From Turnera subulata (Eukaryota > Streptophyta > Magnoliopsida > Malpighiales > Passifloraceae), in assembly GCA_028386065.3 (NCBI GenBank), contig JAKUCV010001799.1, forward strand, positions 1 to 64,000: a stretch of 64,000 bases of DNA, written 5' to 3'. The notes below the pieces were generated by a model, which did not search any database, was not told the origin of the DNA, and was given only the letters and a program-made list of their open reading frames with translations. The translations under genes and the position numbers were made by a program. Numbering within the stretch: position 1 is the stretch's first letter; each line of letters opens with the position of its first letter. Positions 3,812 to 53,490 of the stretch are shown here, piece by piece.

Positions 3812-4495
3812 TTAACGCCTGGGAACGACATTGACCCTGAAGCTGGTTGGGTCGTTGTTAATGTTGACTTGGATGGTGTCGCTCCACGAGAACCACAAGC
3901 CGCCTCTGCCGTCCTGACCAGGAAGCTCGAACCGGTTTGCTTGAGGGAACTAGAGTGGGATGAGACCGTGATCGTCTTGAGGTTGCCACTGGGTCTCCGT
4001 CAGAAGAACCATGTTTGGTTTGTATTGGTTCTTCAAGTCCCTCAGAGTACGCGAGAACTCCTGGGAACGCCTTGCGACTCCTCTGCAGTTCCACACCAGC
4101 TGTCGGGCCTTTGGCCAAGTTACGGGCAGACGAGTGACTCTGGGCATGCTCTGGGCTGTCATCGAGAGCTGGTAGTAGGTACCTTGCTCCAGGAAGTGGC
4201 AAGTGGACTCTAGGTTGAACTCCTGAAGCCTTTCAGAGATGAAGAACATGATGGAGTTCGCCGAGCCGTAGTAGGAGGTCCTCAGAGTGCCGCGGTCCTC
4301 TAGGAAGAACACCTCTTCCATTGGAGTGACGAAGAACCGCGATGAGTATAGTTTGCTGACGAAGACTAGAGGTGGCATCCTGCCGAGTTCGTTCGGTAGC
4401 TCTTCAGCACGCTCGTTGACCATGCTGTAGGCCAGTCGGTTCCTTCTGCCAAGATTGGCACCTTCGACGAAGAAGACTGATGAGGGAGCAGGCAT
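3812..4495 (-). pseudogene. Antisense accessory ORF, 227-codon family, copy 1 (one nonsense codon)
   Basis: Same 228-codon frame as the intact copy at 9140-9823, starting MPAPSSVFFVEG. Codon 182 is TAG instead of CAG, so the product would stop after 181 residues; the remaining frame stays open to the family stop at 3812. It lies antisense to the E1 element, downstream (in its own direction) of the 125-aa ORF at 5363-5740. An upstream TATA-like element lies near 4605. The C-terminal half carries the WNCRG and TET motifs of an EEP (LINE endonuclease-like) fold. Function unknown. Confidence 0.75.
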
Positions 4496-4602
4496 CTTGT
4501 TTTGGACGGGTGGGGTTTTGTTTTACGAACATTGTGTGTTATTTGTCTGAGCGGTTTGTTTGCTTTTAAAATGCTTTTGATGATTTACACATCACCGCTC
4601 CT

Positions 4603-4612
4603 TCTTTTATAC
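4603..4612 (-). promoter_or_regulatory. TATA-like box for antisense ORF copy 1
   Basis: On the minus strand the sequence reads AGTATAAAAGAAGGAG, about 110 bp before the ATG at 4495. The same box precedes the copy at 9823, and close variants precede the copia-hosted copies, which argues that it is a genuine core promoter. Confidence 0.5.
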
Positions 4613-5362
4613 TCTTATGGGGAGCGTGATTACCGTTTTTTGATTTTCAAGATTTTGCTTTTTGAAATTTTCCGTTGCTTTCATTTATTGCCTTGTTACT
4701 TTACGCGTTTCTCGGACTACCGTGCCAAAGTTTTTCAGCCTTTTTCCATCTCTTGATTTTCTTTCGCTCTGGCTACTTTGTCTTTTCTTTCCATGGTCTT
4801 TCTATATTTTTCTTGCATCTTTTATCACATGCATTCGTGACCGTTGAGGCTAGACTGATGGGATCACACCTCGAGTAGAGCGCAAGCGCGACAAGTTTAC
4901 AGCTGTTCGGACATCGTGGAGAGATACAAGACGAGACAGACGTTTTTGGCTCATGCAGAATTTGTGAACAAGTGGGTAACGTTTCTTTTGAGGGACACAG
5001 TACGTGCTCGTGATCGTCACCGTGCGAGTTAACGGTCGTCTTTTCCCTGAGGGAGACAGACGACACCGTTAGTTGCACGTGTTACGTTTCTTGGGTTCGA
5101 GGGTGTTTACGTCCGATACGAGCACCGATCATGAAAACGTGTTTTTGGTTTTAATTTCTTTTGTTTTTGTTTTGTTTAACGAATTTTGTTTTTAATTCCT
5201 TTATATATTTGATTTAATATTCTTATTGTTGATTTTTGTTTTGTTTTGAGATGTTTTATTTTTCTATTTAACATAAGACTTTGTAATATAAGGATTTGGA
5301 TTTAAAAAGGGAAATTTATTTTATTTATTTCATAAGGTTTTACAAACAGGAGAAGAAGTACT

Positions 5363-5740
5363 CTATTGAGTTACATGCTTCTCTAGGTCTTTTACAAGTT
5401 TTTGCACGGTTTTCATGTGAGGAAAGAGTTCCGCGCACGCTAGTTCGATTTGCGCCACCGCCGAGCTGATCTTCTTCAGCGAGACGTTCAGCTGCGTCAG
5501 TGTCTGCTGTGAAGTGCTACTTTCAGCAGTAGCCTTGCCCTTCCGATCTTCAGCTTTCTTGATGGCACGCTTCTTCCGCCGTTTTGGGGAGACGACCATG
5601 TGCTCCTTCAGGCCTACAATGTTTGTCTTGAAGCGTTTCTTCGGAGGTTCTTCATCGGAGCTTGTCGGGAAAGCAGTGCCGCCGATGTAGCTGTTGTTCT
5701 CGGAGTCTGAGGTAGTCCTTGATCTCAGTGGAGAGTCCAT
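5363..5740 (-). CDS. Antisense 125-aa protein: nuclear-type basic clusters and coiled coil (copy 1)
   Basis: Starts MDSPLRSRTTSDSENNSY. N-terminal third is Ser/acidic; basic clusters PPKKRFK (residues 32-38) and PKRRKKR (52-58) look like nuclear localisation signals; residues 81-123 are amphipathic with regularly spaced Leu/Ile/Val, a predicted coiled coil. A TATAAATA box lies about 40 bp upstream of the ATG on the minus strand. A second copy at 23481-23858 in E2 has exactly the same length with only scattered substitutions, mostly in the basic region. No family recognised; possibly a nuclear nucleic-acid-associated or dimerising protein (inference). It is the first of two ORFs running antisense to the element. 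Confidence 0.65.
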   Translation of the reverse strand: MDSPLRSRTTSDSENNSYIGGTAFPTSSDEEPPKKRFKTNIVGLKEHMVVSPKRRKKRAIKKAEDRKGKATAESSTSQQTLTQLNVSLKKISSAVAQIELACAELFPHMKTVQKLVKDLEKHVTQ

Positions 5741-5774
5741 GATTGTGTGTGAGTGTGCCAGTCATGAGGCATGG

Positions 5775-5782
5775 TATTTATA
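5775..5782 (-). promoter_or_regulatory. TATA box of the 125-aa ORF (copy 1)
   Basis: TATAAATA on the minus strand, about 35-42 bp before the ATG at 5740. The E2 copy has TATATAAA at the matching place (23893-23900). Confidence 0.5.
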
Positions 5783-5907
5783 AGCGGACGAGATGTCGCT
5801 TAAGGGTAAAAGCGGTATCTCGGGATGAGTTTGGACACCTGGCAGAGTGTGCCAGAAGCGTATTGTGGTAGGACCCACGGATAAGACGGGATTTCGGGGA
5901 CGAAATT

Positions 5908-5926
5908 CTTTTTAAGGTGGGTAGAC
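5908..5926 (+). other. Polypurine tract of E1
   Basis: TTTAAGGTGGGTAGAC immediately precedes the TG of LTR 2 at 5927. The same sequence precedes LTR 4 at 24045. This fixes the element orientation as plus and therefore the two ORFs as antisense. Confidence 0.6.
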
Positions 5927-8869
5927 TGTAACAGCCCGGGTAAAATTTTTAATTTTTACCGGGACTGTAAAAGTCTTTTTACCGTGATTTACTGTTGAAT
6001 TAATCTTGGGTAATTAATTCAAGGTAAATCGAGCGTCGTTTTTCGAAACCGAGAGTTTTCCCACGCTCGTGATTTTCCCGTGGATTTTTTGAGCCTAATT
6101 TGGTATTTTTCAGGTTTCGGAATTTCACGGAAAATCACACCGGAAAATAACTAAGGGGGTATCAGTTATTTTTTGGTCCGGATCGGACTCGCTTAATAAT
6201 GCAGACAGGATTCACATGTTGAATAGTAAAATCACAGTTATAAAAAGAGGAAGAACGCAGAAGAGGGGAAGAGGAGAAGAAAAAGAAAAAGAGAGGAGAA
6301 GAAGAAAGAAAAGAGAGAAAAAGAAAAGAAAAAAAAAAGAAAGAAGAGAAAAAAAGAAAAGAAAAAGGAAAAAAAGAAGAGAAACGAAATTAAAAAAAAA
6401 CAACAGAAAAAAAAAGAAAAAATTGAAACAGAAAAAAAAAGAAGAAAGAAAATCAGTGAAAAAGAAAAAAAAAGAAGGAAAATCGGAAAAATGGAAAAAA
6501 AAAGAAAGGAAAAGAAAATAAAATAAAAAATTCATAAAAAAGAACAAAATAGGGAATGAACAGTGTGTCAACCCGGAGCCTCCCTTCGTTACTGTACTCG
6601 AGGAAGCGATCGGCGCCGAGTCTCGACGCACCGACGCCACCCCCGTGCTCGCCGTCCTGTCGCCGACTTGTCCCCGTCGCCCCTGTCGCCTTCCGCCGCT
6701 CGACGCGCCGTCAGTGGCCTTTGACCCGCGGCGAAACCCGTGGATCTTGCTCCCAGCGCCGCTGACGACGAACCCGTCAGCCTTCCGCCTCCTTTCCGCC
6801 GCCCGTGGAGTCGCCCCGATGTCGCCGACTCCGCGCTAGCCATCCCTCGCGCTGCCGCGCCGTCGACCGCCGCTGCTAGGTAAGAACCCGTTTTCCCTGG
6901 GCGGGTCGCGGCCGGGTCGCGCCCTCCATGGGTTGCAATCCGGATTTGTTCTTTTTTTTTTAATAATATATATATATAGATATATATATATATTTATATA
7001 TATATATAATTACTTTCTGTAAATTAATTTCTGGAAAAAAATGGTGAATATTATTTTGGAAAATTATATGCAATATTCTGGGTTGGGGTTTAGAAAAATA
7101 TATATACCTTGATCCTTCAAATTAAGATAATTATATTTTGCTTTAAATTATTATTATGGTTAGTTTGAAAAATATATATATACCTTGAAAATACTTTCTG
7201 GAAATTATAATTATATGTTATTATTTCTCTGGAATACAGTATGTATATATTATTATTCTTGGACAATATATATAGGTATATTTCTGAAATATATATATTT
7301 ATTTCGAATTATAAATTTTGGGAAATATTTTGTCTTAGGAAATAAAAATGTATATATATTAAATTGTACTTATTTTCAGAGTAAGTTTTTATGATTATAT
7401 ATTTTCTGGGAAATAACATATAGCATATGATTAATATATATATATTTTTGGTAAATGACAATATTTGGTAATTATATTATGGTAAATAGTTTTATTAAAA
7501 ATGTAATATTTTAGAAAATAAATGTATACACATGTTATTTTTTCAGAAAATTATGGTGATTATAATTTTGGAAAATTATAATTATTTTATGAAAAATATT
7601 TTTAAAAGAGTTTTAATTAAAGTATGGTACCGAAATTATATTCGGAAATACGTTCTGTAAATATTTTCGGTAAAGGGAAATAAATAAAAGATGTGTAACC
7701 GGATGGTTAATTTCGCAGTTTGGGCATCATAGCATACAGATTATGTGCATTTATGTGTATATGTTGTTGTGTTGGATAGGTTTGGATATCGGGCAGTTTC
7801 CCGAGGAGCTGGCGTCGGACCGGTCATTATTTCCGGAGTTGAGTAATCGGCCAAGGTGAGGATGGATTTCCTTCAATATGTGCCTGTATTACTCGATTAT
7901 TATGTTTTGTTGATTATTGCATGTTGCATTTGCTGTGGTTTGGTTCGGGATGTTTATCCCATTGTCTTGATTGTGGTCGGGATGTTTATCCCATGTTGGT
8001 TTTTGGGATGTTTATCCCCGTGTTGATTTTCTGTGTCTTTTGGATTAAGCATAAAGGATTAAATAATAAATTGTGACAAGGATGTCGATCCTTGGTATTT
8101 TGGATGGGATGTCTATCCCGGTATTTTGGTTAGGGATGTCGATCCCTGTGATTTGATTTTAATAACGGTAATATAATTGTCACGTGGTAAGTAGAGGTAC
8201 GACCGGATGGTTTGAGACTGTTTTGTGGTGCCATGATCTGGGTTACTTGTGATGGGCATGTTGATGACGGTTTGATTGGGATGTTGATCCCCGAGTTTGT
8301 TATTGGGATGTTGATCCCGGGTTCTTTTTGATCTGGCACCAGGAACAGGTTGATAACCTGGTACGACCCTAGCTTATCCGTGACGGGGCCCGGAAAAGAT
8401 AAAATTGGAAATTGGATTTTATTTGAGTCTTTTGATTTATTTTGGCGGTTTTTGCCTGTTTTTGGACTTGAGTAATTTTAGTGTTCATATTGATGGTCTT
8501 TCCTTCTTCGGTGAGCACTTCGGACTCACCCCTCACCTGCGGGCTTTCATCCCGTAGGATGAGTTATTTTTGGTACAGGTTCGATGCATACCAAACAGGC
8601 TACAGCGTTATCCCTTGGACATGGCTCGGATCCATAGTTTGCATTAGTATCGCATACAGTGTTTATGTGAGTTATTAAGTCTTCCGCTGTGCATACTTTT
8701 ATTATTATTGGGCCATTGGGTCGGTTGAGTTATTTATGATGTTTTCTTTTTTGGGCTGTTGAGCCCGTGTTCCTGTTATATACACTGTATGCTGGTCTTA
8801 TTTTTGTTGGGTCGTCACAGTTCCAGCACGTGTTTACTATGTACGGTAAATACGGGTCGGGGCGTTTCA
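5927..8869 (+). repeat. E1 LTR 2
   Basis: TG...CA bounded, 2943 bp, co-linear with LTR 1 except for the homopolymer region and a longer GC-rich block (about 6560-6880). Contains the splice-donor-like AG|GTAAG at 6880 and the dyad array at 7947-8318. A primer-binding site follows at 8873. Confidence 0.8.
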
Positions 8870-9139: not shown

Positions 9140-9823
9140 TTAACGCCTTGGAACGACATTGACCTTGAAGCTGGTTGGGTCGTTGTTAATGTTGACTTGG
9201 ATGGTGTCGCTCCACGAGAACCACATGCCGCCTCTGTCGTCCTGACCAGGAAGCTCGAACCGGTTTTTTTGAGGGAACTGAAGTGGGATGAGACCGTGAT
9301 CGTCTTGAGGTTGCCACTGGGTCTCCGTCAGAAGAACCATGTTTGGTTTGTATTGGTTCTTCAAGTCCCTCAGAGTACGCGAGAACTCTTGGGAACGCCT
9401 TGCGACTCCTCTGCAGTTCCACACCAGCAGTCGGGCCTTTGGCCAAGTTACGGGCAGACGAGTGACTCTGGGCATGCTCTGGGCTGTCATCGAGAGCTGG
9501 TAGTAGGTACCTTGCTCCAGGAAGTGGCAAGTGGACTCTAGGTTGAACTCCTGAAGCCTTTCGGAGATGAAGAACATGATGGAGTTCGCCGAGCCGTAGT
9601 AGGAGTCCCTGAGAGTGCCGCGGTCCTCTAGGAAGAACACCTCTTCCGTTGGAGTGACGAAGAACCGCGATGAGTAGAGTTCGTCGACGAGGACTAGACG
9701 TGGCATCCTGCCGAGTTCGTTCGGTAGCTCTTCAGCACGCTCGTTGACCAAGCTGTAGGCCAGTCGGTTCCTTCTGCCAAGATTGGCACCTTCGATGAAG
9801 AAGACTGATGAGGGAGCAGGCAT
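9140..9823 (-). CDS. Antisense accessory protein, 227 aa, intact copy (half-EEP domain)
   Basis: Complete frame of 227 residues. Residues 1-120 match nothing I recognise (motifs EGANLGRRNR, VDELYSSRFFV). Residues 130-227 resemble the N-terminal half of the endonuclease/exonuclease/phosphatase domain of plant LINEs: WNCRG at 135-139 (Asn136 matching the metal-site Asn), TET at 166-168 (Glu167 matching the catalytic Glu), and GGMWFSW at 198-204. The frame ends before the Asp/Asn/His catalytic residues of the complete fold, so nuclease activity is unlikely. A TATA box (TATAAAAGAAGG, near 9931-9940) lies about 110 bp upstream. It is carried antisense in the truncated second internal copy of E1. 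Homologues: 3812, 21680, 45581 and 52808. Possible roles are RNA/DNA binding or antisense regulation; not determined. Confidence 0.75.
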   Translation of the reverse strand: MPAPSSVFFIEGANLGRRNRLAYSLVNERAEELPNELGRMPRLVLVDELYSSRFFVTPTEEVFFLEDRGTLRDSYYGSANSIMFFISERLQEFNLESTCHFLEQGTYYQLSMTAQSMPRVTRLPVTWPKARLLVWNCRGVARRSQEFSRTLRDLKNQYKPNMVLLTETQWQPQDDHGLIPLQFPQKNRFELPGQDDRGGMWFSWSDTIQVNINNDPTSFKVNVVPRR

Positions 9824-9930: not shown

Positions 9931-9940
9931 TCTTTTATAC
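9931..9940 (-). promoter_or_regulatory. TATA box of the intact 227-aa ORF
   Basis: Minus strand reads AGTATAAAAGAAGGAGCGG. The core TATAARAAGG recurs before the copies at 4495, 45581 and 53490, although the host elements are otherwise unrelated. Confidence 0.5.
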
Positions 9941-9998: not shown

Positions 9999-10914
9999 AT
10001 TATTTAATATATTATTTTTCATTTTTTCATTTTTATTGCAATTGTGTATTTTAATTTTTGTAATAGATTATTTTTTTCAGGAAAATGAAAATTAATACTT
10101 TGGATGAGTTGACCCTTGACAGTGATTTATGGACAATTCAAGTTAGGGTTTCAAGATTTTGGGAGTTCTTGAATACAAAAGTAAAGAATCTCCTCATTAG
10201 TTTAGATTTGATTTTAATTGATGCAAAGGTATGTTTAAATTTTTCATGCCTTTTATTTTAACTCATTTTTAATTTTTTTTTCCATTTTCCATAATTATTT
10301 TATATTATTATGTTTTAATATTTATTTATTTCTATATTATTTCATTTTTATAGTATTATTTTTTTAATTATTTTTTTTTTGTAATGTCCTAGAATTATAT
10401 ATTATTTTCATTTTTTTGGCATTGTGTTTGTATTTCTAACTTTCCAGAATTATATATTTTCCTATTTTTATTTTTTTAGCTTTCTGTTTTATAAAAAAAA
10501 ACTTCTTGTTACATTAGAATTTCCTCATCCATTCACAAAATCATATTTATCTAAAACATTTAAATTTTATTTTTGAATAGGAAAAATAATATTTCTCGTC
10601 ATTAATTTTTTAATTATTTTTTTGTAATATTATTTTTATAAAAATTAAAATTTTGTCAACAGTAAATTTTATATTGTGATTTATTTAATTCATTTGAATT
10701 CTTAAACTTAAAAGTTTTATATACAAAACTCATAAGATTAATTTTTATTAATTTTCTATAAAGACATTATTCTTTCAAAATTTATATTCATAGGACAACA
10801 AATAATCTATTTAATTTTTTACGTAGAGTTTAGAATTTAGATAATTATTTTATGTAATATTATTTTATTACAGAGTTATATTTTCATAATTCATTTGCTG
10901 CCTTTACCTCGTTC
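9999..10914. other. AT-rich unique sequence between E1 and E2
   Basis: This sequence continued directly into 26849 before E2 inserted (5-bp duplication CGTTC). Apart from the RPA-like exon it is AT-rich intron-like sequence. About 50 bp at 10492-10544 recur inverted at 27951-28003. Confidence 0.5.
10085..10228 (+). pseudogene. RPA70-like OB-fold first exon (fragment)
   Basis: A 48-codon open stretch beginning with ATG and ending at a consensus-like donor (AAG|GTATGT). It contains WTIQVRVSRFWEF and LDLILIDAK, matching the start of plant RPA1/RPA70 DNA-binding domain A (WTIKVRV..W.....F..I..VLIDEKG). No following exon could be found. Plant Helitrons and multicopy RPA1-like genes both carry such exons, and either origin is possible. 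Treated as a gene fragment. Confidence 0.55.
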
Positions 10915-11834
10915 TGTAACAGCCCGGGTAAAAATTTGGATTTTTACCGGGACTGTAAAAGTCTTTCTACAGTGATTTACCGGAAGAATTAATCTTGGGT
11001 AATTAATTCAAGGTAAATCGGGCGTCGTTTTTCGAAACCGAGGGTTTTCCCGCGCTCGAGATTTTTTCGTGGATTTTACGGACCAAAGTTGGTATTTTTC
11101 AGGTCCCGGAATCCTCAGAAAAATCACACTGGAAAATAGCTAAGTGGGTGTATTAGTTATTTTCTGGTCCGGATCGGACCCGCCTCATATGCAGCCAAAC
11201 CTGCATAATTGAAGCAACTATGCAGGCGGCTGATGTGCAGTGTTTTCATCGGTTAAAAAGCAGCTGGGAAGAGGAAGAAAGGGAGAGGAGAGGAAAAAGA
11301 AAAAGAGAGAAAAAGAAAAGGAGAGGAAAAGAGAAAAAAGAAAGAAACAAAAAAAGAGAGAAAAGAAAGAAGAAAAAGAAGAAACAAAAAAGAAACAAAA
11401 AAGAAATAGGAATCGGAAAAAAGAGAAGAAAAAAATAATAAAATAATAAATACAGAAAATAGAAAGAAAATAGAAAAAAGGAAACAAAAAAGGAAAACCC
11501 GGGTGAACAGTTCGTCACCTGGATCCTCTCCCCGGTTACTGTACACGAGATGGAGTTCCAGGTCGAGTCTCGCTGCACCGCCGCCACCATCGTCCTCGCC
11601 GAGCCGACGCGACCTCGAAGCCGTCGCCCCCGTTGCCTTCCGCCACGAGACGCGCAGCCGGCGAGCGTTGACCTGCGAGCAGACCCGCGGATCTGCTTTT
11701 CGTCCGCTCTGCTCAGCCGCCATGACGCCTTCCTCGCGGTTTCCTTCTCTTCGCGTCAGCCGCGCCGCCGCCGTCATCAAGGTGAGAAACCCGTTTTCAC
11801 GGGCGGGTCGCGGCTGGGTCGCGCCTGGGTTGGG
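10915..11834 (+). repeat. E2 5' LTR, first part
   Basis: Includes the purine tract (about 11265-11500), the GC-rich block (about 11505-11781) and the donor-like AAG|GTGAG at 11782. Broken at 11834 by the Athila insertion. It continues at 19833, as shown by co-linearity with the 3' LTR 24045-26843. Confidence 0.8.
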
Positions 11835-13611
11835 TGATCGCTTCCTGCAAGTATACAGGGTTGTTGTAGCACACAAGGTCGTCTCACAGGGATCTTTGTT
11901 AAGTACTATTCAACTAAGCAACTTACGATTTTCTAGAGAAATAAATAATGTTGAGGATTGATGTTTGAATTGGAAAACGAAAGCGATTAAAATTCAATAA
12001 TATTAAATATCTAGGACTTCGGGGAAAAACCTTGCCAAAATTTCCATGCAATTAAGCTCAGCATAAGCAAACCATGTTCTGTCACTACATAGCTAGCCTA
12101 TGTAAAATCTATGAATTAATTCTGAAAATAAACTCTCTTAAAAGCAACGGTAAATCTAAGCTAGATCGATAACCTACTCTCGTAGTGCCGTAAAATCCCT
12201 ACCTAGTTTACGTCCACTATCCATTTGCCAGTGATGAAATAAACTAAGAGCATTAAGAAATTTACCTACTTAATCTCCAATAAAAAGCACGCCTCCCTCG
12301 AGATTGGTTTTTATAGCCCGGTTAATGTTTTTCTATAGGCAAACGATGCTGTCACTTAACGTTTCCCTATTATGGATTTATGCTAAACGATGGCCAATTA
12401 ATTAACTTAGTGAAGTTTCATTACCGGATTAAAAGAGAATAATTTCAGAAATAAAACTCTAATTAAATATGCATGGAAACATTAACAAGTTCAACCCCCT
12501 AATCCTAGACAAGAATTCTAGCAAGACATAACTTTAAAGAAAATAATAAATACTTGGAAATAGACCATCATAATTAATTCAAGAGTGAACTTACAAGAAA
12601 TGGGAGCCAACCTTGAACCAAAAGGGACAAATCTCCAAGACTAGAATTTTTCCAAAAGCTAAAGCCAAACTAGAATTACAAAGTAAAAATGAGAGTACAA
12701 GTTCCCTAACTAATTGTGTTTGCCGAATGAACTCTGGGTGTGGAACTTGATTCCTTGTCTTCTTGTGAGCAGCCCTTTTATAGTGTAGGGGAGAGCAAAT
12801 TGGATGGCTGGAAATGAAGTGAAGTGGCGCCAAAAGTGCCAATGGACCACTTCCTCTTTGCGCCAAAAATAGAAACCAATTTACCAGCTTCCCAAACTGT
12901 AGCATAGTACAAGGTAGTTGTTGGAAGTTTGTTGCTCCCTCCATGCAGATGCAGCCACATGTCCCTTGACCAAGCCTCCCTCCTTGGATGATGTAAGTAG
13001 CAAGTCAAAATTGGAGGGTGGTGAAAAGAAGGTCACGTGAATGGCTTCCAACTCCTTTTCTTTTACTTCTTTTCTTGTACTTGCCACCTCTCATGCTCCC
13101 ACATACATGCAAAAATATAATCCATATCCTCTTTTCTCTTCTCCCCACGTTGAACAAGGGACAAGTGGTCAAGAGGACCACTTCTTCTTCCTATTTAAAT
13201 GCATGCATGCTTCCAAAATAAGTGGAATTGGGGTACAATTGTAAAACTACCCAAACCACCTCCAAATTTAGCATGTGTACCACCAAAATTCTTAAAATAA
13301 TACTAGGATTATTTCTGGAAATTCTGGGCAAAAATCAAGGCCGAAAATTCTGGGCTTGACACGTGACCATGGGCTGCCTATGCCGCACAGGCTGCATAGG
13401 CTGCTTATGCGAAAACTGCAAAACTGCCCCGAAAACCGGCTTTTAGTCCTCATTTCTGCACAAGAGCACTAAGACACTAGGACAAAAAGGTGTTATTAAA
13501 ATAAAGGAAAAAATTGAAAGAAAATGAAAGAAAATAAATAAAATAAATAATATTTGTAAGTTAAAAACCGTAAAAAGGACCCGTAAATGAGTGTAAAATG
13601 CACACTCATCA
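11835..13611 (-). repeat. Athila 3' LTR
   Basis: 1777 bp, closely similar to 18060-19827. Contains short CAGGCTGCATAGGCTGC repeats near 13385-13420. Preceded in element direction by the tract AGTATGGGGTGG (13612-13623), the polypurine tract. Confidence 0.8.
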
Positions 13612-15508: not shown

Positions 15509-15580
15509 ATCTTCCTCTCCCTCAGTTAAACTCGCATTTATGTAATTTGGGTGTATGGAGTTTGTTCCCAGTAATGAACA

Positions 15581-17953: not shown

Positions 17954-18030
17954 AACAAAAACTACCCAAACGGGTGAAAAAGGAAAAAAAAATCTAGAAT
18001 AACCTAATCACTAAGTTAAATAATATTAAC

Positions 18031-18053: not shown

Positions 18054-18059
18054 AAAACT

Positions 18060-19827: not shown

Positions 19828-19832
19828 TTGGA

Positions 19833-37883: not shown

Positions 37884-37897
37884 TGCAAGTGGGAGAT

Positions 37898-42411: not shown

Positions 42412-42497
42412 TGTTATAAATCTTTTGTTTAATGAAGAAAAATGGAGAAGAAAGGAATAAGAAATGGAGAAGGAGAGGAAGAACACAAATATTTAAT

Positions 42498-42531
<34 letters not shown>

Positions 42532-42714: not shown

Positions 42715-42959
42715 CTCCTCCTCATTTTGGCCTCTCTTAATTTCTTGATGTCGTTGTATGCCAATCATCCTTGCTGGTGACGTATGCTTTGTCCGATCAC
42801 TTTTCATAAATCACTACTTTAATTGGACAATGTAGGCACCATTATCTTCAAATTTTGTTGTTGGTGTATCTTTCTCGCCATCTTGCTTCTGTGGTCTGAT
42901 GATATAGCAATTTCATATGTAAAGTTGTAGCAGATGTCCGTCTATACTTTATGTGGATC

Positions 42960-45050
42960 AAATAAAGGACCTGCATCTACAAAAACCCACTATATTTTCT
43001 TCGGGCTTACAGGGTTAATATAATGCCTCATCTTACTATATCCCGAAGATAAGAGCATAGCCATATCTTGCCAATAGGCTTATGGCAAAAACTACAAGCT
43101 CCACGTTACTAGTACTTTGACAGGGTACTCCAGGACCAATCTAATTCTTTCATGATATTTTTCATCTTAAATTATTTCTTAAAATATTGCACGGCATTTG
43201 AAAGCTTCTTCAGGAGTTCCAATAATGTTTAAAACACAATCATAAACATAAGCAACAGTTATAGTACATGCGAATACATAAAACATATATGCAAGAATAA
43301 TCATACTTCACATAATCATATTTAGTTTAAAACATATAAAGATTAATTTTAACAATATATTCCTGGGAATTAGTTGCTTCAAGCAACTTGAATCCTTCAG
43401 GGATTCTCATGCATATGTCATGACTTATGGATCCGTAAAAATAGGCTGTAATAGCATCCATTTGATGCATATCAAAAATAATTGCATCCACCACAGGGGA
43501 GTATATCTCCTCACAATTAATACCAAATCATTTGGATAAAACCTTGTGCGATAAGCCGTGCTTTGTATTTCTCTATTATAATTTCCTTTTCGCACAAATA
43601 CCCAATTTTCAATCGACTGGTTCTACACCATCAGGACTACAGGTCCAGAAAATTTCTCGCTTCACAAGCGAGTCTAACACAGCCTTATGTCTTCTCTATT
43701 TTGGCCAATCATACTGCTCCTACATTCACCAATGTAAGTTCATGATCCTCATTTTATTTAGCGCTATATTATAAACAAATATTCCGTCGACGGTTATTTC
43801 ACATCGGTTCCCTCTTATTCTTGACACTATAATTGAGGTCTCATCATACTCATTTATTTTAAGTACCTGAGTTACTTCTGGAACTTTATCAATTGTGTCA
43901 GAAAATCTCTTCTGGAGGATTTTCCTCTTCTTGAGGACTTTTAATATGAACCTCTACTGTAGGTCTTATTTTCTTACTGGGCCATTTTATCTCTTTGCTC
44001 CTTTTTCTCTATCGAGAATTTTGTTTTCTTTTGGAACCGAGTATATTCTACGCTTCTGGCGTACTTTAGATTCATTTGCATACTATATTTGTTCTTTCGG
44101 AACATCAATTTGAACAGGAACATTTGCAACTGGTATATAAGATTTGGTCACTTTATGTGTCTGAAAATTTCATATCAATTTTTCTGCAAATGAATCATCT
44201 TTTGAACTTCAGATTCATACTAATTTATTTGAGGATCAATAACTATATATTGATAATATCTTTTAATAATATCTTGATCCAGCTGCTAACTTTCTCCCCC
44301 TGATGTTGGGTAAACTCTATCGTCAAATTAACAAATCTCCAATCGTTAGTCAATGGTTTCAATTACTTTGTAATTGATGGAGATTTTTTTTTTTATACCC
44401 AACATCTATTCCCAACCTTCTTTAAGGACCATCTTTACTATGCTGTGGTGGAGCATTATATACTGCAAAACCAACGGTCCGAAGATGGGAGTTACTAGGT
44501 TCGTGACCATGAACGAATTAAATGGGGAGACCTTATGATAACTTGTTGGCTTGATGCACACAAGTGTTGCTGCATATAAAATACCATTTTCGCAAACAGT
44601 AATATTTCATTAACAGTGGTCCTGCAATCAATTGTCAATATTCCCCCAGATCTATTTGGATTTATTTCCAATGATATACATTTATCTATTGAAGAAATAT
44701 ACCAACATTATCTAGACATATAGTCTAATAACATATGTAGGGATATGTACCCGCAAGTGGCTTAATCATTAAAATAAGTGCGCACAATGCCAACTTGCGT
44801 CACACAATAGACCATCTAGTCGATGCATCGTAAAATTTACCTAGATGGTCAACACGGCGGATTTATTAGTCCGCGTACATGTCCCTGAATTATTTCCAAA
44901 CTTGCTGGTGATTCTAGGCCAATCTCATCTTAGGAAGGCCGTATAATTAATTTCACAGCAAACAAACACGTGGAAATTTATTGATTGTAAAACTTCTGGT
45001 TTTTCAATGGATGACCAAATATATTTCGTGCATCATTATTGACCTGGGAT
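42960..45050 (-). pseudogene. Decayed copia pol in element A
   Basis: On the minus strand this matches element B 54000-55930 in order, but stops and frameshifts break it everywhere. Recognisable bits include the ATAACCGTCGACGG region and CCAGAAGTAACTCAGG. No usable frame remains. Confidence 0.55.
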
Positions 45051-45079
45051 GGCCCAACCGGTCATGCCAAATAATAAGT

Positions 45080-45320
45080 CCATGTACCAACTTCAAGTTG
45101 GTGCCAGTTTCAGGCTGCTATTTATGTGCCAGCTTCAAGCTGGATATGATAACTTAGGAAAATTATTTACCAGCTTTTGGCTGGTGCATAGAAGCTATAA
45201 ATCACATATCTATCTGCCAACTTCTAGTTGGTCTCAGCTTCGGGCTGTGCAAACTGTGTATTTAAACACTTAAAATTGCTAGCTTCAGGCCAGTGTATTC
45301 CAGCTTCTGGCTGGATATGG
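45080..45320. repeat. Cluster of palindromic CCAGC-loop-GCTGG hairpins (element A)
   Basis: Hairpins with a TTCNN loop: ACCAAC/GTTGGT at 45086, CCAGC/GCTGG at 45129, ACCAGC/GCTGGT at 45169, CCAAC/GTTGG at 45217, CAGC/GCTG at 45235 and CCAGC/GCTGG at 45300. They lie 260-500 bp upstream of the antisense ORF start at 45581. A matching cluster lies upstream of the element B ORF at 53800-53940. Confidence 0.8.
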
Positions 45321-45524
45321 TAAGTTTTAGTTACTCAATTGCTAGCTTCAGGTTGCAATACGTGTGTCAGTTTTAGGCTTATTTCTACCACTCATGTCGA
45401 AAAAGATCAGAATTATTGAGCAATAATTAATGTAGTGGCATGCCTTTTTCAAAAGCAAATCCTTTTGGATCTTTCTAGGGGTCCATGTTTGGAAAAACTG
45501 ACACCTTGCTGTCTAGTCTCAGAC

Positions 45525-45535
45525 TATAAGAAGGG
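45525..45535 (+). promoter_or_regulatory. TATA box of the element A antisense ORF
   Basis: ACTATAAGAAGGGGAGG, about 50 bp before the ATG. The element B copy has GGTATAAGAAGGGGG and the gypsy-hosted copies AGTATAAAAGAAGGAG. Confidence 0.5.
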
Positions 45536-45580
45536 GAGGAAAAAAATGTGTAGGTGTAGAAAAACACAAAGAAATAAAAC

Positions 45581-46265
45581 ATGCCTTCCCCAGCTATTGT
45601 CTTCTTTGTTGAGGGTGCCTCACTAGGAAGAAGGAATAGACTACCTTATAGTATGGTGAATAAACAGCAAGAGGAATTACCGAGTGACCTCGCAAGAGTC
45701 CCTCGTTTAGTTTTTGTTGATGAACTATATTCATCTAGGTTCTTTGTAACTCCTATGGAAGAAACATTTTTCCTAGAGGACCAAAGCAATCTAAGGGCTT
45801 CCATTTATGGCTCGACTAACTCTATTATGTTTTTTCATATCTGATAGACTGCAGGAATTTCAGCTAGAGCCTTCATGTCAAATTTTGAATCAAAGCAGTT
45901 ATTACCAAGTTTCTATGATGGCTCGGAGTGTCCCGAGGGTGTCTGGGTTACCGCCTTAATGGCCTAAGGTACGACTGTTACTATGGAATTGTAGGGGTGT
46001 AGCCAGAAGATCCCAAGATTTTGTGCGTACCTTAAGGGATTTGAAGAATCAGTACAAGCCCAACATGGTACTGATTACTGAGACTTTGTGGCAAGCAGGA
46101 GAAAATCATGGTGTAATCCCACTCCGTTTTCCTGCAACGAATCGGTTTGAGATACCTGGAGAAAACAACATGGGTGGTGTATGGTTTTCTTGGAACGACA
46201 GCATTAGGGTCAACATTAACTGTGAGGCTCAAAGTTTTAGGGTTAATGTTGTGCCTAACAGATAA
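45581..46265 (+). pseudogene. Antisense accessory ORF, 227-codon family, copia A copy
   Basis: Starts MPSPAIVFFVEGASLGRRNR. One inserted base near 45838 shifts the frame, and one TAA lies at about 45957; otherwise the 227-codon frame is open to the same stop. The total length is 685 nt, exactly one more than the intact copies. It keeps LLLWNCRGVARRSQDF, LITETLW and GGVWFSW. The surrounding copia pol is far more decayed. Antisense to the host element. Confidence 0.75.
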
Positions 46266-46839
46266 ATATTCTTCAGAAACATATTCAAACTTATGCTCTT
46301 CTGGCGCGTGTTAATCCTTTTCACATTACGAGATTGTACTATCACATGTTATGTGAAATAGTTGACATCCACACATATAACTCTCCCCCTTGGATGTCAA
46401 TTTGCATTGTCTTCAGGACTAATGCCTGAGGCATTATTCTAGAAATGATTATAAAATGTTGTAAAGTACATAAAATAAAATTAAATAATACTGAACATAA
46501 AATAAAATTATTCAATATATATTGGCTTGCACCTTTAGGGTAAGCAAGATAAGAACAGTATCTATCTTTTGATGGTCATACAATATCCACCTTCTGGTGG
46601 CCATACAACATCCATCTTCTGGTGGTCATATCTTTCTTCAATTTTCCTCAAAGATCTGCGGGATATTTTGGCAGTAAGACATCCAGTCTTTACTTTATTT
46701 TCCTCTTTTTTTTTTTATTACGTCTTCCAAACGATTTGCATTTAAATACATTCAATGCCCATAACAAATTTATTCCGAAAATTCTAAAGGGCCTCCAATT
46801 CAAGTTTTGTGATAAATTAAATAAATAAAGACTTAAATA

Positions 46840-47180
46840 AAATAAATAAACATGGGCCTTTTATTAATTAGCCTAGTAAAATTGAATAAACAAAAATTAA
46901 ATGCAATGGGCCTTGTACGAGCCCAATAAAAATGTATATTAAAGCAAGAAAATAAATATAATGGACCTTTTCATAGCCCAATAAATAACCGAAAATTAAA
47001 GGCAATGGGCTTTTTATGAGCTCATTTGTAATTTAAATGAAAACATAAAATATGCTTACCCGATAAAAGGCGGCTTAGCCAGCCAACAAATGAAACAAGG
47101 CGGCTTTCCCGGCCAACAAATGAAACAAGGAGGCTTTGCCAGCCAACAAAGAGCTAAGGCGGCTTAACCGGCCAATATTG
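46840..47180. repeat. GGGC/GCCC dyads and 30-bp tandem repeats in copia A
   Basis: Repeated TGGGC...GCCCA inverted pairs (46850-47020), then about four 30-bp units GGCGGCTTAGCCAGCCAAC at 47068-47176. Element B has the equivalent dyads at 51664-51910 and GGCCGGCTAAGCCGCC at about 51565 and 51700. Confidence 0.7.
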
Positions 47181-47599
47181 AATACTAAATAAAGCATAAT
47201 AATAGAGGGTATATAATATACGCTTAGTCGATAAATCTTTCAGCAGTAATAAATAACATAATAATATAGAATATATAATATATGCTTACTCGATAATTTT
47301 TTTTAGCAGTACTAATATATAATACCAAATTATTATTCAAAAAATATAATTATTTTTATTATATATATATATTTTTACTTATTGATTATTATGATTATTA
47401 TTATTATTCATTTTTTTTAAAATTTTCAGACTGGCTAAATAGTACCAGTCTGGACCTTGCACAGGGCCAAACCCAGGCCAAACAACAACCCAGGCGCAGC
47501 CCACACTTAAGGCCCAGACGACCAGCCCAATCCCCAGCCCGCGACCCAAGTTCCTCCAGCCCATCCACACGCGGGTCAACACCCGACCCGAATACAACC

Positions 47600-48240
47600 C
47601 ATCCGGGTCGTCTTCAACCCGTGGCGGGTTTGCTCTCTTGCAACGGCGGGCGTGGCGCGAGGACGGCGACTGGAAGGAGCGATGACAGAGGCACGGTGCA
47701 GGAGAGGTGAGTGGCGCGGCGTGAAGGCGGTGGCAGGAGGCGGAGCGGGCAGCTGCTTGTGACGCGACCCGACGAGGAAGACGAACTGCGGCGCGGCGTG
47801 AAGGCGGTGGCAGGAGGCGGAGCGGGCAGCTGCTTGTGACGCGACCCGACGAGGAAGATGAACGGCGGCGCTGCTTCTTGCCTCCACGGGGCGACGACGG
47901 CGGTGGCAGGGTCCAGCAGCGGAGACAGCGAGGTGGAGGAGAAGAGTGGTGGCGGCAGCAGTGGTGGTTGGTGGTGCTCGGCGTGAGCGAGAGGAAGGAA
48001 ATGGGTCGGGTTCCGCCGTCGGGTCGTCGAGCCTAGGCGGCACGTCAGGCGGCGAAAATGGGAGGAAAAGGGGCCGTTCAGTCGGCGTCGGCGAGGGGAA
48101 CACGCCGGAGGTGGCGGTGGCATAAGAGGTGGCTTAGAACTCATACGCGTGGAGGTGGCAAACTGTTCATGGTTTCGCTGTGTTTTTTTTTCTTCTCTTT
48201 GCCGGTTTTCTTCATGCTCAGGCAGAGGCATTATCGTGCT
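47600..48240 (-). other. GC-rich leader of element A with a 77-bp tandem duplication
   Basis: Just inside the 5' LTR. In element direction: purine-rich stretch, GAACAGTTTGCCACC, then GC-rich Pro/Arg/Ser-encoding sequence. A 77-bp unit is duplicated at 47714-47790 and 47791-47867. Open frames here reflect GC content. The same module is present in element B and in the gypsy-type LTRs. Confidence 0.6.
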
Positions 48241-48276
48241 GATAACGTGTTATAAATCTTTTGTTTAATGAAGAAA

Positions 48277-48277: not shown

Positions 48278-49294
48278 GGGGGAGGGATTTACTTTGACCA
48301 GTTAACATTACGTTACTGTAAAAAAAACATTACGCTACAGTATTTAGTTTAGTTCAGCTCGTTGCTAACCAAACGCACAATAGTCCCATCTAATGTACAT
48401 CATTTTAAATACTATATTGGACAGACAGTTTTCTAATCCGGTCCAGTTCAGTCTAGTCTAATTTGACCTGTCCCTCGAAGCAAATGCACCCTTGCTACCT
48501 TTGAGCTTCGAATGCAATTTGAACGTCACTGATCCTTGGCGATCCTTGGACCATGCTTCCTCAACCACTAACTTTGCCTCATTATTAGACGTTCACCCTC
48601 TATCAAAATGGAAGAGCTTCAATGTTCGAGGTAAGAGAATCTGTTGTTGATCAGAACCTAATTCATGATCCAAATGGAGGACTTTAGGTGAGTCATAGGC
48701 ATTTTTTCCAATTCACCTTTGCAAAAAAAAATCTATCAAGTCTCTCCTATATTCCCATCACCATCCCATACGTTGTTCCACAAAAAAGGGGTGGGCGCCC
48801 AATGAATTCCAAGTCAATCGAAGTCATTCTGTCACCAAAAAAAAAAATATAAAAAGCTCTAATTTTGTGTTGCTTCGTCGTAAGGATTGCTGCCCTTCTT
48901 TTCCTTCTTCATTCTCGGCAAAACCTTCAAATCACCACACAACAAAAGAGCTCCACCAAGATTCCATTGTTCACAAAAAGGAATAAGAAAGAGGTGTTAA
49001 GCTCCCAGCCACGGTACGAATAGTACATAGGATGAAAAATTCACTGCTACAAATAATATTAACCGAAATATTATTTATGACCCAACATGCAACCAGGTTG
49101 GAGAAATTTTATAGTTCACAATTGATTAGGGACTCCCTATAATAAAATTTTACAATTAGGTATTGCCTAATAGTCTCATCTCATCCAATATGTACTCTAT
49201 CAAACAGTTTAATTGGCCTAATAGATATTTGTCTTGCCTATTCCAGTCTAGTCCAATTTAGATCCGAAAACCAAAAGCAACTGTTATAAAACAA
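48278..49294. other. Spacer between copia A and B, no gene
   Basis: Low-copy-looking sequence with an A run at 48838. No coding or RNA-gene signal. It may contain a small non-autonomous DNA element (phrases such as CTAACCAAACGCAC), but I could not define ends. Confidence 0.3.
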
Positions 49295-49546
49295 TGTATA
49301 AATACATGTATGTATGTCATTGTGCCACTGCGACATCCATTTCATTAGGAATTGATGATCTTTTAACAGTCTTACATACACTATACGGTATTCCCACTTA
49401 TTATAAATATGTGTAAATCAGAAATGGAATGTTGAATGAAAAATGGAAAACGGGGTAATGAAACCCGTGACCGGAGCTTCGCCGGAGTTCACCGGAAAAA
49501 CCATTTCCTCCTCAAGTTTCTCCTTCTTCCTCTTTTATTTATAACA
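49295..49546 (+). repeat. Copia B 5' LTR (start approximate)
   Basis: Shares ACATGTATGTATGTCATTGTG and the final 150 bp (AACCCGTGACCGGAGCTTCG onward) with 56119-56334. Confidence 0.6.
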
Positions 49547-49559
49547 CGTTATCAGCACG

Positions 49560-50215
49560 ACTTGTTCTCTACCCGAGCATGGTTTTTCGGAGCAGAAGAC
49601 AAAGAAAAAAAAAACATAAAAAGGGAAGGAAGAAGGAAGATGAACAGTGCGCCACCTCAGGGTTACTGTTCATGGCGAAGAGCTCCGGGCCACCTCTCGT
49701 CTCACCACCACCACCGTCAGCATCCTCACGCCGTCGCCGACCTGACGGCACCTCTCTCGCCCGCATCCGCCGCTCGACGCGCCGCTAAAGGCCACAGACC
49801 CGCCGCGATGCCCGCTGACCCGCATGGCAAGACGGGTCTACCTCACGCGACGAGCCGCCATCCTCACTGCCCACCGCGACGTCACCGCTCTGCTCCAGCC
49901 CGCCTCGCCGTCTCGCCCGTCACCTCCACCTCTTCAGGCGTGCCCATGCTGCCGCCGTTTCCTCCCGCGATCGGCGACCCGACTGGGTCGGATCCATTTT
50001 TGCCGCCCCTCGCTGCAGCTGCTGCCGGCCACGTCTCTACCTTCCCGCCTTCTCGCGCCGTGCCGCACCTCCTCTTCGTGTCGCTTGCTCGCCTCGCCGG
50101 CCCGACGAGCCCCGTCTCAGCCTTGCCGATGTGCAGCCCAACGAAGGAGATGACCCGATTTAACAGTTTAGTCCCTGACGTTTTGTTTTATGCAGGTAAG
50201 TCCCTGCAATTCAGT
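49560..50215 (+). other. Purine tract and GC-rich leader of element B
   Basis: Order: GA-rich tract, GAACAGTGCGCCACC, GGTTACTGTTCATGG, about 500 bp of GC-rich sequence, ending at a consensus donor-like CAG|GTAAGT (50196). The long open frame (49436-50221) follows composition and crosses the LTR boundary, so I do not call it a gene. The module parallels those in the E LTRs (1555-1706 and 11500-11782). Confidence 0.6.
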
Positions 50216-50368
50216 ACTTAAGTAATTTATGTTCTCAATTTTGTCCTAAACGAATATATTAATGTTTAATTAATGATGTTATTGTGTGATTGAATGTTTA
50301 ATTAATGTTGATCTTGGATGATTAAATGTATGGTGAGCTCACGGTGAGTCCCGGAACTTAGTTTTTGG

Positions 50369-51217
50369 GGGATAATGGCTGCAAAAGTCCTAAAATTTAG
50401 GCCAGATATCGTTTGAGTCCTAAAATTCGTTATTAGGCTAAATAAGTCCCAAGTTTTTAATTACGAAGTCTATTGAGTCCTAAAACTTTAATTTAGATCT
50501 CGTTTGAGTCCTAAAATTCATTACTTGGCCAAACAAGTCCTAATCTTTGATGATAAGTCTATTTGAGTCCTAAGTTAAATTTCCGTTAGTTAGAGCCGTC
50601 AACTTAGAAAAAAATTGATATGCATCATAAAAACCAACGTATGTTACTAACAAAAACATAAGTAGGAGGGATATTTTATAGTATTTGGTCAAATATTTTG
50701 GGTACTGAATTTATTTTTAGTTAACCCACAAGAAAACTATAAATTTATTTTATTTTTACATGATAGTCTTTAAGTAAGTTTAATTTATAAAAAAAATAAT
50801 TATAATTTTTCTTAATTGCAAGTTTTAAAATTTATCATAATTATGCAATATAGCCATAAGTTTGATATGATTTAAAATAAAAAAAATTGTTAGGTGCGAA
50901 AAAATTTTATAGAGAATTTAGCAAATGCAGTGTAGTGTAAATAATCAGTATCTATATGGGTCCATAGCCATTATGGTCATTATGACCACATGTCAATAAT
51001 TTTTTTTCAAATTAACGGTTTTAAATAATAGAAATTTAACTTAGGACTCAAATAGATTTCATAATTAAAGATTTAGGACTTATTTGGCCAAATAACAAAA
51101 ATTAGGACTCAAATGAGATCAGGCCTAAAGTTTTAGGACTTGTTTGGTCAAATAATAAATTTTAGGACTTAAATGAGAACAGGCCTAAAATTTTAGGACT
51201 TTTGCAGCCATTATCCC
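50369..51217. mobile_element. MULE-like TIR element, 849 bp
   Basis: Long terminal inverted repeats beginning GGGATAATGGCTGCAAAAGT on both ends, flanked by a perfect 10-bp duplication TAGTTTTTGG (50359-50368 and 51218-51227). The interior repeats AGTCCTAAAATT motifs in both orientations and has no ORF. Long TIRs with a 9-10 bp duplication are typical of Mutator-like MITEs. Confidence 0.8.
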
Positions 51218-51663
51218 TAGTTTTTGGCCTATGAATAGTGTTTGGCCGGAATCCGGCGATGAATAGTAAATCCGACCTCGTGAACACTAATTTTGGCCAT
51301 GTGAATAGTAATTTCCGGTTACCGTGCATAATGATTTTGGTCGGAATCCGGCAAACCCAAAAATGTTTGGCCGGCATTTGATGCCTCGGCAAAATAATCC
51401 GGCACGGTGGGTAGAAATTTCCGACGACCGTGAATAGAAATTTCCGGCGACCGTGAATAGTGATTTTGGCCGAAATTTGAAACCTCAAATTTTTCCCCGG
51501 CAAAGCCCGGAAGACCGTTATATAAGCCCGGAAGGCCGTTATATTTATTATATTCTTATTTATTGGCCGGCTAAGCCGCCTTTATCATATAAGCGTATTA
51601 TATATGTTATTGCTGAAAGATTTATCGAGTAAGCATATTTTCTGTTTTTATTTAAATTCCGAT

Positions 51664-51912
51664 TGGGCTATTAAAAAGGCCCATTATTCATTTAATGGCC
51701 GGCTAAGCCGCCTATTTCTTTACGTTTTAATTGGGCTCGTGTAAGGCCCATCACATTTAATTTTCAGTAATTTAATTTTTATTGGGCTACTTAATAAAAG
51801 ACCCATTGCATTTAATTTCCAGCCATTTATTTTTAATTGGGCTATAATAGGGCCCATTGTATTTAATTTTCTCGTCTTTAATTTTACTTATGGGCACGTA
51901 CTAGGCCCATTA
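51664..51912. repeat. Array of TGGGC...GCCCA dyads in copia B
   Basis: Five units starting at 51664, 51732, 51783, 51838 and 51891 (period about 51-68 bp), each TGGGC, 8-14 bases, then GCCCAT or ACCCAT. The same array is inverted in element A. Confidence 0.7.
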
Positions 51913-52090
51913 TTTTAATTTCCTGTCATTTACTTTCCTTGGAGTAATTAATATAATGCCCCTTGCTTATTTATTTTAATTAAGCATTTATATATTTTTT
52001 TCAATTATATTATTTGAATTTGTGGCACTTAAAATTTCCGGAAGAAATTTATAATGGGCATTAAATGCGAAAATGCATTTAAATGTGAAT

Positions 52091-52540
52091 AGTCTGAAAG
52101 ACTAAATGTACGAGTCCAGAAGACTCGGGAAAAGAAAAAATACAACGAAGACTGGAAGTCTTACCGTTCAAAAGATCCTGAACATCCTTCAACGAAAAAT
52201 AAAAAATAAACATTATTACCACCAGAAGATGGCAATTATATGACCACCAGAAGGTGGATATTATACTTGCTTAACAATTCATTTTCTATTCAATTTATTT
52301 TTATGTTCATTTTAAATTATTACGCATTGCAATTTATTTTTATTTACTTTTCAGTACTTTATAACTGTTTCTTAGAATAATGCCTGAAGCATTAGTCTCG
52401 AAGACAATGCAAAATTGACATCCACAGGGGGAGAATTATATGTGTGGATGTCAATATAACATATTATGACATCTCGAAATAAAAAAATGATTAACACGCT
52501 CCAGAAGAGCATAAATTCAAATATGTTCCTGAAGAACGCA
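52091..52540. repeat. Hairpin series with CWGAA-type loops, 5' part of copia B
   Basis: AGTCT/AGACT at 52091; CGAGTC/GACTCG around CAGAA at 52111; AAGACT/AGTCTT at 52148; CCACC/GGTGG around AGAA at 52244; AATGC/GCATT around CTGAA at 52379; GCTC/GAGC around CAGAA at 52498; GTTC/GAAC around CTGAA at 52525. Stems differ from hairpin to hairpin while the centre stays close to CCWGAAG. Confidence 0.8.
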
Positions 52541-52807
52541 TGTTTTAATATGATCTAGAAGAACGTATATTTACGCAAGTACAGACACCCCCAGTAATAA
52601 AATGAATTATTATGGATCCCAAATAAATTGACTCAGATTTATTCCCTGAAGCAAATAAGACAGTATAGTTATTTGTGCCTGTGGGCGTAAATGAGAAAAT
52701 AAATGGAAATGGCTCAAAGTAAACATGCATATTATTGCAAAAGCAGATCCATAACTAGAGAGCATTCAAAGAAGAATGGTCTTTATACATATGTTTAAAC
52801 AAGTAAT

Positions 52808-53490
52808 CTATCTGTTGGGTTCAACATTAACCCTGAAACTCTGAGCCTCACCATTAATGTTGACCCTCACACTGTCGTTCCAGGAGAACCACATACCACC
52901 CCTGTTGTTTTCTCCAGGTATCTCAAACCGATTCGTTGGAGGAAAACGAAGTGGAATCACACCATGATTCTCTCCTGCTTGCCACAAAGTCTCAGTAATC
53001 AGTACCATGTTAGGCTTGTACTGATTCTTCAGATCCCTTAAGGTATGCACAAAGTCTTGAGACCTTCTTGCTATACCCCTGCAATTCCACAATAAAAGTC
53101 GTACCTTAGGCCATGTAGGTGGTAACCCAGTCACCCTTGGGACGCTCTGAGCCATCATGGAAACCTGATAATAATTGCTTTGATTTAAAATTTGACATGA
53201 AGGCTCTAGTTGAAATTCCTGCATCCTAGCAGATATAAAAAACATTATAGAGTTAGCTGAGCCATAAAAATTTGTCCTGAGATTGCCTTGGTCGTCCAGG
53301 AAGAAAGTTTCTTCCATTAGAGTCACAAAGAACCTAGATGAGTATAGCTCATCTATAAAAACCAAACATAGATTCTTGCTAGCTCATTAGGCAGTTCCTC
53401 TTGTTGTTCATTTACCATGCTATAGGCCAATCTATTTCTTCTGCCTAGTGAGGCACCCTCAACAAAGAAAACAGTAGCTGGGGATGGCAT
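52808..53490 (-). pseudogene. Antisense accessory ORF, 227-codon family, copia B copy
   Basis: Starts MPSPATVFFVEGASLGRRNR. A single-base deletion near 53375 shifts the frame, after which VFIDELYSSRFFV to the stop at 52808 is continuous. The total length of 683 nt is one less than the intact copies. It keeps LLLWNCRGIARRSQDF, LITETLW and GGMWFSW. Antisense to element B, with a TATA box near 53591. One lesion only, against a pol region that is beyond use. Confidence 0.75.

Follow-up and report, generated by a model that had tools for sequence, protein, structure and literature searches.

A 64,000-nt stretch of the Turnera subulata genome (contig JAKUCV010001799.1, positions 1 to 64,000; hereafter the window) carries five copies of an open reading frame (ORF), here ORF1, that run antisense to long terminal repeat (LTR) retrotransposons of two superfamilies: elements E1 and E2, with Ty3/gypsy-type termini, and the Ty1/copia-derived elements A and B. 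ORF1 is probably a selected antisense gene for an accessory protein in two non-autonomous LTR families of different superfamilies, having been transferred and probably acting preferentially on its own element copy.

The gypsy-type copies E1a (3812-4495), E1b (9140-9823) and E2 (21680-22363) are each 684 nt long and lie on the minus strand, while the copia-type hosts contain copy A (45581-46265, plus strand, 685 nt) and copy B (52808-53490, minus strand, 683 nt). The coordinates and lengths given by a first-pass annotation of the window's letters were reproduced, the starts and stops being homologous and all five copies running antisense to their own element, and no further copy was found in the window by tblastn at E 1e-3. 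The annotation described all five as the same 227-codon ORF, which stands as a statement of homology, but the full opening of 227 codons is present only in E1b (protein P0001) and E2, which are intact and encode 227 residues each; codon 181 of E1a is followed by a TAG in frame, the frame of A is broken by one inserted base and a TAA stop, and B, one base short, is frameshifted. The opening is not attributable to chance, since it was kept in only 7 of 5000 Markov-1 resamples for E1b and 4 of 5000 for E2, and since changes fall mostly at third codon positions (28/21/58 at positions 1/2/3 between E1b and E2, 21/11/60 between A and B).

The 518.7-Mb assembly, in which the window is C1632, was searched with the protein of 9140-9823, as the first-pass annotation had proposed, and ORF1 proved abundant, with the classified best matches all lying in LTR elements. 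Matches were scored for the best 150 in each list, a choice biased toward intact copies: for the E1b query these were the best 150 of 8130 candidates (90-100% identical, 106 without an in-frame stop), and for a 185-codon piece of B the best 150 of 7704 (93-99% identical, 132 without an in-frame stop), the two first-look candidate sets probably overlapping and not being copy numbers. The context of the best-scoring loci was gypsy-type in seven of seven (L002-L008) and copia-type in 30 of 30 (L009-L038, L009 being B), and ORF1 was antisense to the element in all 37, each in the expected family, so that the proposal of one ORF common to both superfamilies was borne out. One copia-type locus, L015, has an additional 3% stretch resembling the gypsy reference.

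Between the two families ORF1 is 68-71% identical in amino acids, with synonymous sites saturated and non-synonymous divergence (dN) of about 0.19-0.20, whereas the window's copia and gypsy reverse transcriptase (RT) queries gave no cross-match at E 1e-3, which argues that ORF1 moved between superfamilies. In 999 of 1000 bootstraps on distances the five copies cluster according to host family, synonymous divergence (dS) within each family is about 0.5-0.6, and third-position GC differs between the families (0.68 vs 0.38-0.42). Judging from these divergences, the transfer appears to be old relative to the divergence within either family. The earlier suggestion was of a mobile or repeatedly captured module: repeated capture is not shown by these data, as a single old transfer, or two captures out of the same source, would account for host-family clustering and long residence, and a mobile module may be involved. 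When the internal region of the E elements was compared with A and B at high sensitivity, strong similarity was confined to ORF1 and a few tens of bases, the next match, in B, being 48 bp at E 0.002, and the flanks further out are not common to both families.

E1 and E2 were assigned to the gypsy type by the LTR end, primer binding site (PBS) and leader that they have in common with element X of the window and with L105, a gypsy copy elsewhere in the genome. Their LTRs are long (2.8-2.9 kb in E1), begin TGTAACAG and finish GTTTCA. On the plus strand, E1 comprises a 5' LTR at 837-3678, the PBS and leader (TTTTGGTAGCGGAGC...) at 3679-3700, a purine-rich tract at 5914-5926 that precedes the 3' LTR, and that second LTR at 5927-8869, after which comes a truncated second internal region (to about 9998) with E1b. 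E2 (10915-26843, plus strand) is flanked by the 5-bp target-site duplication (TSD) CGTTC at 10910-10914 and 26844-26848; its 5' LTR is interrupted by a nested element at 11835-19827, and its internal region (21405-24044, plus strand) holds the PBS followed by antisense ORF1 and a second antisense ORF, ORF2. Both ORFs are likewise present in E1, where ORF1 lies about 130 bp after the PBS, and the internal regions measure about 2.2 kb in E1 and 2.6 kb in E2. No match to the window's own gypsy, Athila-like or copia proteins was found inside them, and their gypsy status is by termini only, a gypsy pol of their own, with RT before integrase, not having been found. Element X (59734-61468, minus strand), which we take to be Tekay-like, encodes a gypsy protease (PF08284) and RT (PF00078) and has the PBS and LTR end of E1 and E2, and the LTR end, PBS and leader match L105 over 79 bp at 86-90% identity. 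In the 901 bp of L105, the PBS leader is succeeded by a gag-like ORF, which has the same frame as an RT that lies 1.6 kb further on inside a 1545-residue open frame; ORF1 is absent from these 901 bp, outside of which the part between pol and the 3' LTR falls. LTR divergence as Kimura two-parameter (K2P) distance is 0.022 for E1, and 0.029 and 0.053 in two parts of E2. A purine-rich GA tract is repeated in the E-type LTRs (1175-1560, 6270-6550, 11290-11490 and 24420-24610) and also occurs at 58230-58400, in an LTR-like fragment at 58228.

Element A (42408-48250, minus strand, ends approximate) is copia-derived with a dead pol, as is element B (49282-56334, plus strand), whose pol region is 73-83% identical to that of A; the LTRs of B lie at 49282-49546 and about 56120-56334 (K2P 0.08), and no exact TSD was seen around it. 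Both elements have the copia-type PBS CGTTATCAGCACGA (at 49547, plus strand, in B), presumably a mark of the Ale lineage of copia. A Pfam scan of 15 open pieces of the A and B pol regions gave copia-type matches for five, weak matches to unrelated families for two and no match for eight. The copia-type matches are all weak and below cut-offs (E 0.0048-0.15): four in A, in copia order on the minus strand, namely a GAG-pre-integrase remnant (45007-45117, PF13976, E 0.0084), an integrase SH3 remnant (44425-44517, PF25597, E 0.15) and RT remnants (43330-43630, PF07727, E 0.0048 and 0.057), and one GAG-pre-integrase remnant in B (53867-54019, plus strand, PF13976, E 0.0078), whose open pol pieces gave no RT match in Pfam. 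A and B thus present copia domains with the integrase region before RT, via weak remnants, and together with the PBS this upholds their earlier classification as copia elements. In these hosts ORF1 lies upstream of the GAG-pre-integrase remnant. Four copies of the copia type were read over 9 kb, and two of them are complete and have the same PBS, L042 with LTRs 99.5% identical and TSD CCATT, and L041 with LTRs 97.8% identical and TSD GGTTT; in L039 the only repeats are a 115-bp pair whose TSD is unclear, and L040 has no repeat pair. The longest open frame of L042, L041 and L039 is the ORF1 frame. The LTRs of L042, and those of E1 and E2, indicate recent activity in both families. A run of 31 G (42500-42530) and a single N (48278), within or at the edge of element A, are possible assembly artefacts.

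The ratio of non-synonymous to synonymous divergence (dN/dS) across copies, a check that had been proposed with the initial observation, indicated purifying selection in both families, at 0.188 for E1b-E2 (bootstrap 0.11-0.32) and 0.095 for A-B (bootstrap 0.05-0.15). Copia copies were also chosen by pol, as the 12 copies outside the window that best matched the RT remnant, so that ORF1 itself was not used for the choice; eight of the 12 hold ORF1 sequence (only 22 residues in L066), all antisense, and dN/dS was 0.09-0.26 over the 15 pairs formed by B and the five copies with a long ungapped ORF1. A second set consisted of 20 copies taken from 39 outside the window that had been scored by their flanking DNA, and ORF1 was present in 17. 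Changes private to one copy were compared with shared changes in the ungapped 185-codon part of B and nine of these 17, the other eight being gapped or shifted: pN/pS was 0.75 for private changes, with four stops, and 0.09 for shared ones (six synonymous, two non-synonymous; Fisher p 0.008, stops counted as non-synonymous). The corresponding gypsy set, 10 of 39 non-window flank matches, had ORF1 in all 10, of which seven had neither stop nor frameshift, a 12-nt deletion being present in one of these; over seven copies that were ungapped and full-length, one of them containing two stops, pN/pS was 0.21 for private and 0.11 for shared changes (p 0.04). A 66-codon RT piece of A had stops in 139 of its best 150 matches and none in 11, against 132 of 150 copia ORF1 matches that were open. 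When the genome copies with the highest scores were binned, dN/dS was 0.08-0.14 in five of the six bins, a result that was set aside because that choice favours intact copies. In each family the bias among codon positions and the low dN/dS show selection on the amino-acid sequence, and the substitution pattern suggests that new copies decay almost freely after insertion while the replicating lineage retains ORF1. A freely shared protein need not be encoded by the copy that replicates, as the dead pol illustrates, and ORF1 would therefore appear to prefer its own copy.

Each family has a TATA box upstream of ORF1: in E1a 116 nt upstream (4606-4611, minus strand; same offset in E1b, 9934-9939), in E2 118 nt (22476-22481, minus strand), in A 56 nt (45525-45530, plus strand) and in B 105 nt (53590-53595, minus strand); start codon position -3 is A in all five window copies. 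Among the 41 rows L002-L042, including four second reads, a start was recognised in 32 rows, equal to 28 distinct copies (4 gypsy, 24 copia), and in 27 of these 28 TATAA occurs within 150 nt upstream, no start being recognised at nine loci. The distance is 94-121 nt in most copies, 68 in two and 56 in A. The longer motif TATAA(AA)?GAAGG has exactly four sites in the window, all upstream of ORF1, with about 0.15 expected per strand, and was rejected as a shared promoter motif on being found among the fetched loci only in B, L016 and L027; given this failure genome-wide, the two families are credited with a TATA box each and not with a homologous promoter. ORF2 encodes 125 residues in E1 (5363-5740, minus strand), with the basic clusters PPKKRFK and SPKRRKKR, and 125 in E2 (23481-23858, minus strand), where it is 88% identical and the second cluster is less basic; its dN/dS between E1 and E2 is 0.127, and 131 of its best 150 genome matches are without a stop. 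ORF2 had no match in A or B at E 1e-3, and its best Pfam match (E 0.0011, 18.9 bits vs a cut-off of 27) was not used. Upstream of the ORF2 TATA box, a GTGGGTCCTACCAC palindrome is present in E1 (5800-5926) and E2 (23960-24044).

Residues 1 to about 128 of the ORF1 protein have no relative in Pfam, PDB or protein database searches. The last of these, which require shared five-residue words and similar length, covered about 5.8 billion proteins, plant proteins included, and returned 59 candidates with none at E 1e-3, and 6849 with none at E 1; no relative was found in viral contigs, and PDB gave a single match at E 0.42. Residues 128-222 resemble the first approximately 94 residues of plant endonucleases (PF03372) of long interspersed nuclear elements (LINEs), with an hhalign P of 1.7e-4 and a probability of 50%, and all five copies scored above all 1000 shuffles in this alignment. 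The only Pfam match at E 1 was a weak Exo_endo_phos, in E1b alone of the four ORF1 sequences scanned (E 0.0062). A profile of 16 proteins, all gypsy-type as the start pattern missed the copia ones, gave a shorter profile-profile match (38 columns, P 3.9e-4, probability 35%) and found plant endonucleases down to E 7.8e-6. These results point to a homology with the LINE endonuclease that is remote but consistent. Only the first approximately 40% of the domain is present, ending before the conserved YGP, GGDFN and SDH blocks, and DNA cutting is not expected since these later blocks are missing. Neither ORF1 nor ORF2 had a Pfam match to the TRP28 domain (PF04195) at E 1, and the AlphaFold model of ORF1 (mean pLDDT 30) was too poor to use.

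A probable explanation for these patterns is that an old transfer between elements carried ORF1 from one family to the other, or brought it from a common source to each of them, that gag-pol was replaced by ORF1 and ORF2 in E1 and E2 and decayed in the copia family, and that both families would obtain gag-pol proteins in trans. Selection acting via the replicating copies would then maintain ORF1, most likely through a strong preference for the encoding copy, and a protein composed of a new domain of about 128 residues and a non-catalytic half of a LINE-type endonuclease would be expected to bind rather than cut, its putative target being the nucleic acid of the element or a host or partner protein. 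A more specific version, which we put forward only tentatively, is that ORF1 could be a transferable cis-acting helper, the sole protein that a non-autonomous gypsy or copia element must itself encode, with gag-pol supplied in trans and the half-LINE-endonuclease fusion directed at a target common to both superfamilies, for instance a step of replication that they have in common or silencing by the host.

Several observations weigh against selection on ORF1 or against its action in cis, in addition to the bias of the scored lists and the restriction of the long promoter motif to three loci. For the recent pair E1a-E1b, in which one copy is broken, dN/dS is 0.786 (0.27-2.92). ORF1 is without stop or shift in only four of the 17 flank-chosen copia copies that have it, and was not found by tblastn in three of 20 flank-chosen and four of 12 pol-chosen copia copies. 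The copia-family copy L065 has other sequence at the place of ORF1, and could represent either an ancestor without ORF1 or a replacement. The copia contrast between private and shared changes draws on only eight shared changes, with eight of 17 copies left out, and the contrast in stop counts between RT and ORF1, though strong, comes from lists that were obtained with separate queries, differ in age and are not matched copy by copy. A preference for the encoding copy would be the simplest reading of the substitution pattern, from which it is derived. The similarity of L065 to B ends at 52660 and resumes at 53909, the gap being rich in CTCTAGAAGAGCA-like repeats.

Among the alternatives, the two families could have acquired ORF1 in separate events from a gene of the plant host, as plant LTR elements have been described to capture such genes (PMC7264820, in excerpt) and the genome searches would miss a host gene that is interrupted by introns or that scores lower than the best 150 matches; this seems unlikely, however, given that the large protein search, with plant proteins included, found no relative, that two independent captures would both need the antisense orientation, and that all 37 classified loci lie within the two element families, though these are best matches to element copies. 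A similarly low probability attaches to ORF1 being the relic of a gypsy E-type element that inserted in a copia element and eroded in all but ORF1. Nesting does occur here, E2 holding the element at 11835-19827, and L065 is without ORF1 between B coordinates 52660 and 53909, but A and B have no E-type LTR match at E 1e-10 and no ORF2 match at E 1e-3, the strong similarity to the E internal region is confined to ORF1 and a few tens of bases, and nesting would at most supply a transfer route, leaving the later selection on ORF1 unexplained.

The function might alternatively reside in an antisense transcript and not in a protein, for example in control of the element by double-stranded RNA, a role of the kind proposed for antisense ORFs in general (PMC7264820, in excerpt). 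The selection on amino acids that codon positions and dN/dS show in both families makes this improbable as the sole function, and an additional RNA role could coexist with it. Vertical inheritance from an ancestor of copia and gypsy would account for the antisense orientation in both families, but was rejected: ORF1 is far too similar between families whose RTs give no detectable match, and L105, a relative on the gypsy side, shows a gag-like ORF behind its PBS leader and no ORF1 in its 901 bp. A transferred and selected protein gene is thus the reading that we retain.

The element nested in the E2 5' LTR, which we take to be Athila-like, has LTR-like repeats that are 97% identical, and gag and protease on the minus strand. 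The direct repeats 30112-32495 and 37029-39421, which are 96% identical and include the end of a copia RT, represent a partial tandem duplication of another copia element. Two related pentatricopeptide repeat (PPR) genes or fragments (28435-30065 and 56353-57924) have 80% DNA identity, and a copia RT piece starts at 30103, directly after the first of them.

Antisense ORFs are conserved in plant LTR elements, and the presence of ORF1 in two superfamilies provides a natural replicate for the study of function. One gene selected in two hosts that have no working pol may separate functions that an element must supply itself from those that it can borrow, and indicates that copia and gypsy elements of plants have exchanged genes. 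E1 and E2 resemble large retrotransposon derivatives (LARD-like non-autonomous LTR elements) in their long LTRs, PBS, purine tract, the TSD on E2 and the lack of detectable gag-pol, but differ in the two conserved antisense genes of the internal region. The LINE (L1-type) apurinic endonuclease has a start homologous to part of ORF1, in which the domain is incomplete and joined to an unrelated N-terminal domain.

According to the excerpts consulted, antisense ORFs are known in plant gypsy elements and extra ORFs that cross element classes in rotifers (PMC7264820, PMC5408684, PMC9289625, PMC4093653, PMC11963269). The gypsy examples include Grande gene23, RIRE2, Retand TRP28 and PvRetro ORF2 (PMC7264820, PMC11963269, PMC4093653), with which ORF1 shares the arrangement of an extra protein gene antisense to the element; for Grande gene23 an own promoter and a nuclear product are reported in the same excerpts. 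ORF1 differs from these in position, the known ORFs being described there as lying between pol and the 3' LTR and ORF1 being on the gag/protease side, and it has no TRP28 domain as in the Retand/Grande group. The common bean families with an antisense ORF and an RT are described as one gypsy clade, whereas ORF1 occurs in hosts of both superfamilies. Among the entries listed, the literature searched, which was mostly without subscription papers, yielded no plant example of an antisense ORF common to copia and gypsy elements, and the closest precedent for ORF exchange between unrelated retroelements is in rotifers. There, the ORF3s of LTR elements (GDSL, DEDDy) are reported to be common with the Penelope-like Athena elements (PMC5408684, in excerpt), likewise an ORF type in unrelated classes with modular exchange. 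These ORF3s are animal genes for known enzymes with reported expression from a spliced message (PMC5408684), whereas ORF1 is a plant gene, antisense, in non-autonomous hosts and with half an endonuclease.

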